Shown here piece after piece: positions 24,378 through 27,317 of a stretch of 64,000 nucleotides of DNA (the stretch's first letter is position 1; the number at the start of each line of letters is the position of its first letter). The notes under the pieces are model-generated. The model was given only the letters and a program-made list of their open reading frames with translations. It ran no database searches and was not told the origin of the DNA. The DNA comes from Paracoccaceae bacterium (GTDB taxonomy: Bacteria; Pseudomonadota; Alphaproteobacteria; Rhodobacterales; Rhodobacteraceae): contig JAIXPH010000065.1 in NCBI GenBank assembly GCA_027486345.1, positions 1 to 64,000 of the forward strand, written 5' to 3'. Position numbers and translations under genes: made by a program.

Positions 24378-24896
24378 ATGATCCGCCCTATCCTGATCCA
24401 TCCCGATCCGCGCCTCAAGAAGGTCTGCGACCCTGTCCCGGCAATCTCGTCGGAATTGGGCAAGCTGGCCGAGGATATGCTGGAAACCATGTATGACGCG
24501 CCCGGCATCGGCCTTGCCGCGCCGCAGATCGGCGTGGCCAAACGCCTGATCGTCATGGATTGCGTCAAGGAAGGCGCGGGCGACCCCCGCCCGATGGTGC
24601 TGTTCAATCCCGAGGTCGTCTGGTCGTCCGAGGATTTGAACATCTACGAGGAAGGCTGCCTGTCCATCCCCGACCAATATGCCGAGGTGAAGCGGCCGGC
24701 ATCCGTGGCGGTGCGCTGGACCGGTCTGGATGGCGTGGCGCAGGAAGAGCAGTTCGACGGCATCTGGGCGACCTGCGTGCAGCACGAGATCGACCACCTG
24801 AACGGCAAGCTGTTCATCGATTATCTGGGCCTGATGAAGCGGCAGATGATCACCCGCAAGATGGAAAAGCTGAAGCGCGAACGGGCGCGGGGCTGA
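24378..24896 (+). CDS. def: Peptide deformylase, canonical copy
   Basis: GIGLAAPQ, EEGCLSIPD, QHEIDH motifs all intact. Confidence 0.96.
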   Translation: MIRPILIHPDPRLKKVCDPVPAISSELGKLAEDMLETMYDAPGIGLAAPQIGVAKRLIVMDCVKEGAGDPRPMVLFNPEVVWSSEDLNIYEEGCLSIPDQYAEVKRPASVAVRWTGLDGVAQEEQFDGIWATCVQHEIDHLNGKLFIDYLGLMKRQMITRKMEKLKRERARG

Positions 24897-25387
24897 TGGC
24901 CGTCTTGGCCGTGCGGGTGTGGCCTGATCCGGTGCTGTCGCGCGTGGCGGAGCCGGTGACGGAGAGTGCCGCCGCGCGGGGTTTGGCCGCTGACATGCTG
25001 GACACGATGTATCACGCACAAGGCCGGGGTCTGGCCGCGCCACAGGTGGGCGTGTCCTTGCGGGTCTTTGTCATGGATGCGACGTGGAAAGAGGGCACCC
25101 CTGCGCCGCAAGTCTTTGTCAATCCGGTGATCGTTTCGCGGTCTGACGTCATGGCGACGGGGCCGGAAGGCTGTTTGTCCATTCCCGGCATTACCACCGC
25201 CATCGCCCGCGCCACTGCCATCCGGCTGCGCTGGACCGATCTTGACGGCATCGGCCAAGAGGCGGACCTGACCGGTTTTGACGCCATCTGTGCCCAGCAT
25301 GAAATCGACCATCTTGACGGGATCGTCACCCTTGACCGCCTGTCGCCCGAGGCCCGCGCAAAGGCCGAAGCGGAGTATCTTGCATGA
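24896..25387 (+). CDS. def: Peptide deformylase paralog 2 (motifs intact, no C-terminal basic helix)
   Basis: GRGLAAPQ, PEGCLSIPG, QHEIDH intact; TGATG overlap with previous def. Confidence 0.92.
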   Translation: MAVLAVRVWPDPVLSRVAEPVTESAAARGLAADMLDTMYHAQGRGLAAPQVGVSLRVFVMDATWKEGTPAPQVFVNPVIVSRSDVMATGPEGCLSIPGITTAIARATAIRLRWTDLDGIGQEADLTGFDAICAQHEIDHLDGIVTLDRLSPEARAKAEAEYLA

Positions 25388-25887
25388 CTGTCCGTCTCTG
25401 CCTGCCTTGGCCGCATCCCGTGCTGAAAACGCCCGCCGCACCCGTGGAGGCGATCACGGATGAGGTGCGCGCCCTCTGGGCCGACATGATCGACACGATG
25501 GACGCGATGCCGGGCTATGGCCTTGCGGCCGTCCAGATCGGGGTGCCGTTGCGTCTGGCCGTGGTGGATTGCTCTACCGAACGCGGGCAGGCGGTGCGGA
25601 TGGCGAACCCGGAAATCCTGCATGCCAGCGGGCAGTTGCGGGAACACGAGGAGGCCTCGCCCAACCTGCCGCTGGTGTCGGCGGTGATCTCGCGCCCTCG
25701 GGCAGTGACTCTGCGGTTTTTGAATGCCGTTGGAGAGATGGAAGAGCGTGATTTCGTCCATCTCTGGGCCACAAGCGCACAGCATCAGGTCGACCACCTG
25801 AACGGCAAGATGTATTTCGACCATCTCTCGCCGTTGAAGCGCAAGATGCTGATCGCCAAGTCGGAAAAGCTGCGCAAACGCGGTTGA
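25384..25887 (+). CDS. Peptide deformylase-like protein, active-site degenerate
   Basis: GYGLAAVQ retained, EGCLS replaced by EEASPN, HEXDH replaced by HQVDH; ATGA overlap with def2. Confidence 0.93.
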   Translation: MTVRLCLPWPHPVLKTPAAPVEAITDEVRALWADMIDTMDAMPGYGLAAVQIGVPLRLAVVDCSTERGQAVRMANPEILHASGQLREHEEASPNLPLVSAVISRPRAVTLRFLNAVGEMEERDFVHLWATSAQHQVDHLNGKMYFDHLSPLKRKMLIAKSEKLRKRG

Positions 25888-25888
25888 G

Positions 25889-25962
25889 AGTCAGTCGCAA
25901 CGGGTTTGCAGGATGAGTTTGCGAAGCGTTCGCAAGTCTGGTGGTTTGCAAGTCAGTCGCAA
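25889..25962 (+). repeat. Repeat-rich def3-fmt spacer (direct repeat AGTCAGTCGCAA x2 plus TTGCGAA-GCG-TTCGCAA hairpin)
   Basis: AGTCAGTCGCAA at 25889-25900 and 25951-25962; 7-bp hairpin between. Confidence 0.8.
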
Positions 25963-26049
25963 GTCGGAATTTGGCGTTTAAGTATCGGAAACTAAATGAA
26001 ATCTGCCCTCAGATCGGGGCGGGTTCGAAAACGGGGAGAAGGGCCGCGA

Positions 26050-26946
26050 ATGCGAGTGGTTTTCATGGGCACGCCGGAGTTTTCGGTCCCGGTCCTCGAC
26101 GCGCTGCATAAGAGCCATGAGGTTGTGGCCGTTTACAGCCAACCGCCGCGTCCTGCCGGACGCGGACAGGCCCTGCGACCCAGCCCAGTGCAGGCGCGGG
26201 CCGAGGCTTTGGGTCTGCCGACCCGCTACCCCACCAGTTTGCGCACGCCTGAGGCTTTGGCGGAATTTGCCGCCTTGGATGCCGATGTTGCTTTGGTGGT
26301 GGCTTATGGCCTGATCCTGCCGCAAGCCATTCTGGACGCGCCGCGTTTGGGGTGTTTGAACATCCACGCCTCGCTCTTGCCGCGCTGGCGCGGGGCGGCA
26401 CCGATCCACCGCGCGATCATGGCGGGGGATGCGGAAACCGGGATTTGCATCATGCAGATGGAGGCGGGGTTGGACACAGGCCCTGTGCTGTTGCGTTCGG
26501 CCATGACGATAGGGACGGAGGAAACCACGGGCGAGTTGCATGACCGTTTGTCCACGATGGGTGCGGCGCTGATCGTTCAGGCCTTGGCGCGGTTGGCCGA
26601 TCTTACGCCGGACCCTCAGTCCGATGACGGTGTGACCTATGCCGCCAAGATCGATAAGGCCGAGGCGCGGGTGGATTGGTCCCGCCCTGCGGTTGAGGTG
26701 GACCGTCTGATCCGGGGGTTGTCGCCCTTTCCGGGGGCGTGGTGCCAATTTGGCAAGGAACGGGTCAAGCTGCTGAAATCGCGGGTGGTTTCTGGTCAAG
26801 GTGCGCCGGGGCAGGTGCTGTCGGGCCTGACCATCGCTTGCGGCGAAGGCGCGGTGGACATCCTGATGGCTCAGCGTGAGGGGAAACGGCCGCAGGCGCA
26901 GGCCGATTTCCTGCGCGGGGCGGTGCTGCCCGACTGGCTGGACTGA
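26050..26946 (+). CDS. fmt: Methionyl-tRNA formyltransferase
   Basis: [40 protein letters not shown]. Confidence 0.97.
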
Positions 26947-26949
26947 CCC

Positions 26950-27317
26950 ATGCGCCTTGGCGATTGGGCGCGGGCGATCAAGCGCGATTTCGGGGTGCTG
27001 TGGATGGCCCGCAAAGACCCGCGCGTGCCGCGCGCGGCCAAGGTGGTGGCCGTGGCGGCGCTGGCCTATGCGCTCAGCCCCATCGCCTGATCCCCGATGT
27101 GATTCCCGTCTTGGGACAGGTGGATGACCTGATCCTTGTGCCCCTGCTGATCTGGGCCGCCCTGCATCTGATCCCACCGGACCTGCGTGCCGAACTCAGG
27201 GCGCGAGCCCTGCGCGATGGGCCGGGTCGGCTGCCCACAAGCCGCGTCGGTGCGGCGGTCATCATCTTGTCGTGGCTCTTGGCGGCAGGCGCGACCGTCG
27301 CCATATTGATCGGGTAA
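26950..27317 (+). pseudogene. DUF1232/YkvA-like membrane protein gene interrupted by an apparent 1-nt deletion
   Basis: Frame 1 reads ...AYALSPIA* (stop 27088-27090); shifting one base restores LIPDVIPVLGQVDDLILVPLLIW... to 27317. Confidence 0.85.

Follow-up and report, generated by a model that had tools for sequence, protein, structure and literature searches.

An apparently non-catalytic peptide deformylase paralogue conserved in the def clusters of Rhodobacteraceae

The third peptide deformylase (PDF) gene of the def cluster in Rhodobacteraceae encodes a protein, Def3, that has the character of a pseudoenzyme, in that its catalytic residues have been lost and the residues replacing them are held by purifying selection. 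Def3 is very probably not the product of a broken gene but a protein that serves a purpose other than catalysis, perhaps on the ribosome. The specific reading favoured here, to which we give an even chance, is that of a dead Def1-like paralogue under purifying selection, which would dock at the ribosome exit and there either hold N-termini or compete with Def1 and methionine aminopeptidase (MAP). The clusters in which def3 lies are the same as those described by Lamberioux et al. 2025 (PMC12690207), who report that PDF genes are clustered in 98.1% of Rhodobacterales species, with triplets making up 62.5% of the clusters, and who call the rationale of this clustering "elusive". Thus the cluster is already published. 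A description of the inactivation of Def3 was found neither in the main text of that paper, which discusses inactive type 3 PDFs of other bacteria and in which no mention was found of a uniformly inactivated, better-conserved accessory cluster member, nor in a literature search combining pseudoenzyme and deformylase, which returned nothing relevant.

The def cluster and its distribution

The window analysed is a stretch of 64,000 nucleotides from a Paracoccaceae bacterium (assembly GCA_027486345.1, contig JAIXPH010000065.1), in whose open reading frames def1, def2 and def3 follow one another head to tail on the + strand, with the methionyl-tRNA formyltransferase gene fmt behind them. The first gene, def1 (24378..24896, +), encodes a canonical PDF with intact GIGLAAPQ, EGCLS and HEIDH motifs and a basic C-terminal helix, def2 (24896..25387, +) an accessory PDF with intact motifs and no such helix, and def3 (25384..25887, +) the apparently non-catalytic paralogue of 167 amino acids. 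All three match PF01327 well over its cut-off, and at the threshold used no further PDF match turns up in the genome. The original prediction of three coupled PDF genes before fmt is borne out by a TGATG stop/start overlap between def1 and def2 (24894..24898, +) and an ATGA start/stop overlap between def2 and def3 (25384..25387, +), the latter −4 overlap occurring likewise in 106 loci, with the refinement that fmt (26050..26946, +; likely ATG start at about 26050) here begins some 160 nt 3' of def3, as measured from the canonical fmt start. In relatives the median gap between def3 and fmt is −4 (190 loci), the usual 4 nt overlap, and the dose of Def3 could therefore be tied to formylation. The def3-fmt gap of the window (25888-26050) holds direct repeats, consisting of AGTCAGTCGCAA twice and a 22-nt pair. 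On the 3' side of fmt a DUF1232-like gene (26951-27317) appears to be interrupted near 27085 by a frame change, its N-terminal part reaching a stop and the DUF1232 match going on in another frame, and this could reflect either a genuine lesion or a fault in the assembly.

Of 150 genomes sampled across 74 genera of the order, 147 carry a Def3, and no Def3-level score was found in a class sample of about 284 Alphaproteobacteria genomes outside it; the best match outside the order (178 bits) was to a Def1-like PDF whose motifs are intact. The 20 loci examined outside the order for QHQxDH turned out to be chance matches in non-PDF reading frames. An origin from mobile elements was also rejected: no viral contig matching the Def3 patterns codes for a relative, phage PDFs do not exceed 43% identity, and among plasmid records a strong match occurs only in a Pseudorhodobacter turbinis replicon of 1.58 Mb.

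With regard to the make-up of the cluster, the loci were gathered via def3, such that the share of them without def2 is meaningful and the share without def3 comes from genome searches alone. The genes run def1-def2-def3 in 128 loci and def1-def3 in 64, with def2 missing from about a third of def3-carrying loci; def2 is therefore optional, and def1 and def3 represent the constant core. Six Rhodobacteraceae genomes are without def3, each with a single PDF match. That def3 nearly always adjoins def1, often with stop/start overlaps, and that W32 and M42 are fixed only in Def3, where they could make a new surface, would suit Def3 as an obligate non-catalytic partner of Def1, in a heterodimer or as a stabiliser, comparable with the TldD/TldE heterodimeric protease. 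Nevertheless, we consider such a partnership rather unlikely, given that the six genomes without def3 get by with a Def1-type PDF on its own and that the conserved C-terminal helix is already accounted for by the proposed ribosome docking.

The active site of Def3

What, then, has become of the catalytic centre? Def1 and Def2 both read GxGLAAPQ, EGCLS and HEIDH, as first described, whereas the corresponding motifs of Def3 are GYGLAAVQ, EASPN and QHQVDH. In the altered motif II, E90-A-S-P-N94 (25651..25665, +), which replaces the canonical EGCLS, the metal-ligand Cys has become Ser and the equivalent of Leu91 has become Pro. In the altered active-site helix, S131-A-Q-H-Q-V-D-H138 (25774..25797, +), which replaces CVQHEIDH, both His are kept with Ser at E. 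coli C129 and Gln at Glu133, so that the CxQHE of a canonical PDF is SxQHQ in Def3. The absence of the motif II Cys and the catalytic Glu from EASPN and HQVDH, the core of the original prediction, is thereby upheld and enlarged, since a position-by-position alignment in E. coli numbering gives G89A, C90S, L91P, S92N, C129S and E133Q. In E. coli PDF Glu133 is the general base, and in complexes of the enzyme the backbone NH of Leu91 acts as a donor to the formyl oxygen, a role that Pro is unable to fulfil. The motif II Cys of PDF is a ligand of the metal along with the two His of motif III (PMC5591237). With no Cys to bind the metal, no general base and no backbone NH available at residue 91, Def3 would be expected to be catalytically inactive.

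These changes were followed through 200 Rhodobacteraceae def3 loci, made up of relatives, GTDB genomes and a further 60 loci picked as the likeliest exceptions to the substitution pattern, since they had no exact match to the EASPN DNA pattern or were the lowest in score; because some genomes entered via two collections, the loci encode 184 distinct proteins. C90S, L91P, C129S and E133Q are present in all 200, where motif II always reads E[AG]SP[NC] and motif III HQxDH, and neither EGCLS with its metal-binding Cys nor HExxH with its catalytic Glu occurs in any of them. The possibility raised beforehand that orthologues might mostly retain the Cys and Glu thus fell away (0 of 200), and no intermediate keeping one catalytic residue was found among the loci, while both residues are kept by every Def2 and every intact Def1 in the collection. 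Substitutions so invariant are neither chance nor sequencing error. Motif I conforms to GxGxxAxQ with its active-site Gln in all 200 copies, both metal-binding His and the equivalents of Q50 and E88 are invariant, and the pocket equivalents of Q50, E88, R102, L125, A127 and T128 are the same in Def3 as in Def1.

Retention of these residues, together with Ser in place of both active-site Cys, is what might be expected if Def3 were still an enzyme, either a Cys-free deformylase or a hydrolase with another chemistry (Ser, Gln and two His), perhaps with a different metal under oxidative stress, a condition in which type 3 PDFs may use other cofactors (Lamberioux et al. 2025, PMC12690207). Remaining activity of this kind is nonetheless unlikely, as every copy carries Gln in place of the general base and has lost the Cys ligand, Pro at 91 removes a backbone NH, and not a single Def3 sequence keeps one catalytic residue. 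Conservation of most of the substrate-side pocket and the frequent overlap of def3 with fmt would also fit a protein that reads formyl-Met N-termini and signals failed deformylation, for instance under PDF inhibitors. This function appears decidedly improbable, however, as L91P is expected to weaken formyl recognition and no signalling domain or partner gene was seen.

The position of E. coli Arg97 is occupied in Rhodobacteraceae Def1 by Tyr in 163 of 195 sequences and by Phe in 31 of 195. An Arg97Tyr change is reported to lower susceptibility to actinonin in Vibrio (PMC12690207), and by analogy Rhodobacteraceae Def1 may therefore be naturally tolerant to this compound.

Origin and selection

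Def3 forms one clade in the tree (support 100) on a long stem of 0.91 changes per column, from which it follows that the active-site changes fell once, on one ancient branch, and then froze; Def3 arose once, near the base of the Rhodobacteraceae. It groups with alphaproteobacterial Def1-like PDFs in this tree, which took in no type 3 sequences and resolves the deeper branches around Def1 too poorly to settle the parent copy. Two deeper-branching Def3 copies, with EGSPC/HQIDH and EGSPN/HQLDH and 52% identity to the Def3 of the window, already carry C90S, L91P, C129S and E133Q. The deepest copies (loci L229/L238 and L230/L237, genomes G019 and G022) score midway between the Def3 and Def1 profiles, with the Ser, Pro and Gln already there.

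The median dN/dS (Nei-Gojobori, 50 independent pairs) is 0.139 for def1, 0.150 for def3 and 0.277 for def2, the value of def3 being about half that of the catalytically intact def2 (p = 6e-8 for def3 versus def2), and the relaxed selection that had been named in advance as counter-evidence is not seen. Ser90 of Def3 is encoded by AGY and by TCN codons in 100 loci each, a distribution that needs at least 25 switches of codon class on the tree with Ser lost in none, which suggests that selection acts on the replacement Ser itself. A pseudogene or sequencing error is ruled out by the invariant orthologues and the low dN/dS. For all that its catalytic residues are gone, the chance that Def3 is a decaying duplicate is vanishingly small, as this reading is refuted by the conservation of the protein: the low dN/dS, the invariant replacement residues, the ancient single origin and a frame that is intact in nearly all genomes.

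Fold, C-terminal helix and proposed role

Def3 belongs to the PDF family on the basis of its PF01327 match (125.7 bits, cut-off 22.8), and is confidently predicted to adopt the full-length PDF fold, with an AlphaFold2 model (pLDDT 95.7) that ends in a long C-terminal helix at 150-166 and superimposes with TM 0.90-0.93 on solved PDFs, including E. coli Def and V. cholerae Def1 (Foldseek). The helix, LSPLKRKMLIAKSEKLRKRG (25825..25884, +), is the equivalent of the uL22-docking helix of E. coli PDF, in which positions 150 and 157 contact uL22 and position 160 contacts 23S rRNA (PMC12690207). Lys or Arg is found at all three positions in 200 of 200 Def3 sequences, and the median net charge of the C-terminal tail is +7 in both Def1 and Def3 but −1 in Def2, such that the resemblance of the Def3 tail to that of Def1, and its absence from Def2, noted from the outset, agrees with the published ribosome-binding positions. 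The C-terminal helix with uL22-contacting basic residues that marks a type 1B PDF is accordingly seen in both sequence and model. Against docking through this helix, the E. coli R153 contact is Met in Def3, as it is in most Rhodobacteraceae Def1, and the residue at 163 is basic in only about 60% of Def3.

Compared with type 1B PDFs (E. coli Def; PF01327 / TIGR00079), Def3 shares the fold, the Gln and Gly of motif I, the Glu of motif II, both motif III His, several pocket residues and the basic C-terminal helix, but differs in that every copy has the metal-ligand Cys replaced by Ser, the catalytic Glu by Gln, Leu91 by Pro and C129 by Ser. With type 3 PDFs (those of Archaea and trypanosomatids, and the inactive accessory PDFs of S. 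aureus and S. pneumoniae), whose activity is weak or absent, it has in common that it is a paralogue with substitutions in the catalytic motifs; it differs from them in its type 1B-like helix, its one fixed set of substitutions and its grouping with alphaproteobacterial Def1-like PDFs in the tree described above. Def3 scores 112.6 bits against TIGR00079 (cut-off 103.95), and since this NCBI equivalog model accepts it, Def3 would be named an enzyme. Because its motifs II and III are not those of the enzyme, Def3 is filed here in the PDF fold family and not as a peptide deformylase.

E. coli PDF docks via its C-terminal helix at a site that overlaps that of MAP, with which there is competition at uL22, and it lets go of the deformylated chain slowly, such that it possibly serves as an early chaperone (PMC8712518). 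With the helix and most of the pocket kept and the chemistry gone, we infer that docking and holding, or competition, are what remain for Def3. Having retained the PDF fold, the substrate-side pocket and the helix, it would most likely bind where the nascent chain leaves the ribosome, at the uL22 site of Def1 and MAP, which it would either share with them or contest, and would perform the non-catalytic half of PDF action: by holding or shielding nascent N-termini it could in turn determine how fast or how selectively Def1 deformylates them. The fuller proposal, that Rhodobacteraceae have in Def3 a fixed and dedicated component of N-terminal methionine excision that is itself non-catalytic, controls access to or holds nascent N-termini at the ribosome exit and is under stronger constraint than the active accessory deformylase, is put forward tentatively, at somewhat less than an even chance. 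Set against a docking and holding role, L91P and the loss of an R97-like residue, if they abolish the binding of formyl peptides, may leave the Def3 pocket for another ligand or for none, and six genomes of the family manage without def3. The def genes are unnamed in the main text of the published R. sphaeroides Tn-seq essentiality study (PMC5513736).

The nature of Def3 bears on why Rhodobacterales cluster their PDF genes, a question posed as open in 2025, as what stays constant in the cluster is a pair of PDFs, one active and one apparently dead, with the second active copy being optional. It also means that TIGR00079, a curated equivalog model, would give an enzyme's name to a family-wide protein that is apparently non-catalytic. 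If Def3 does work at the ribosome exit, then the chaperone-like holding proposed for PDF would be parted from its chemistry in a natural protein.
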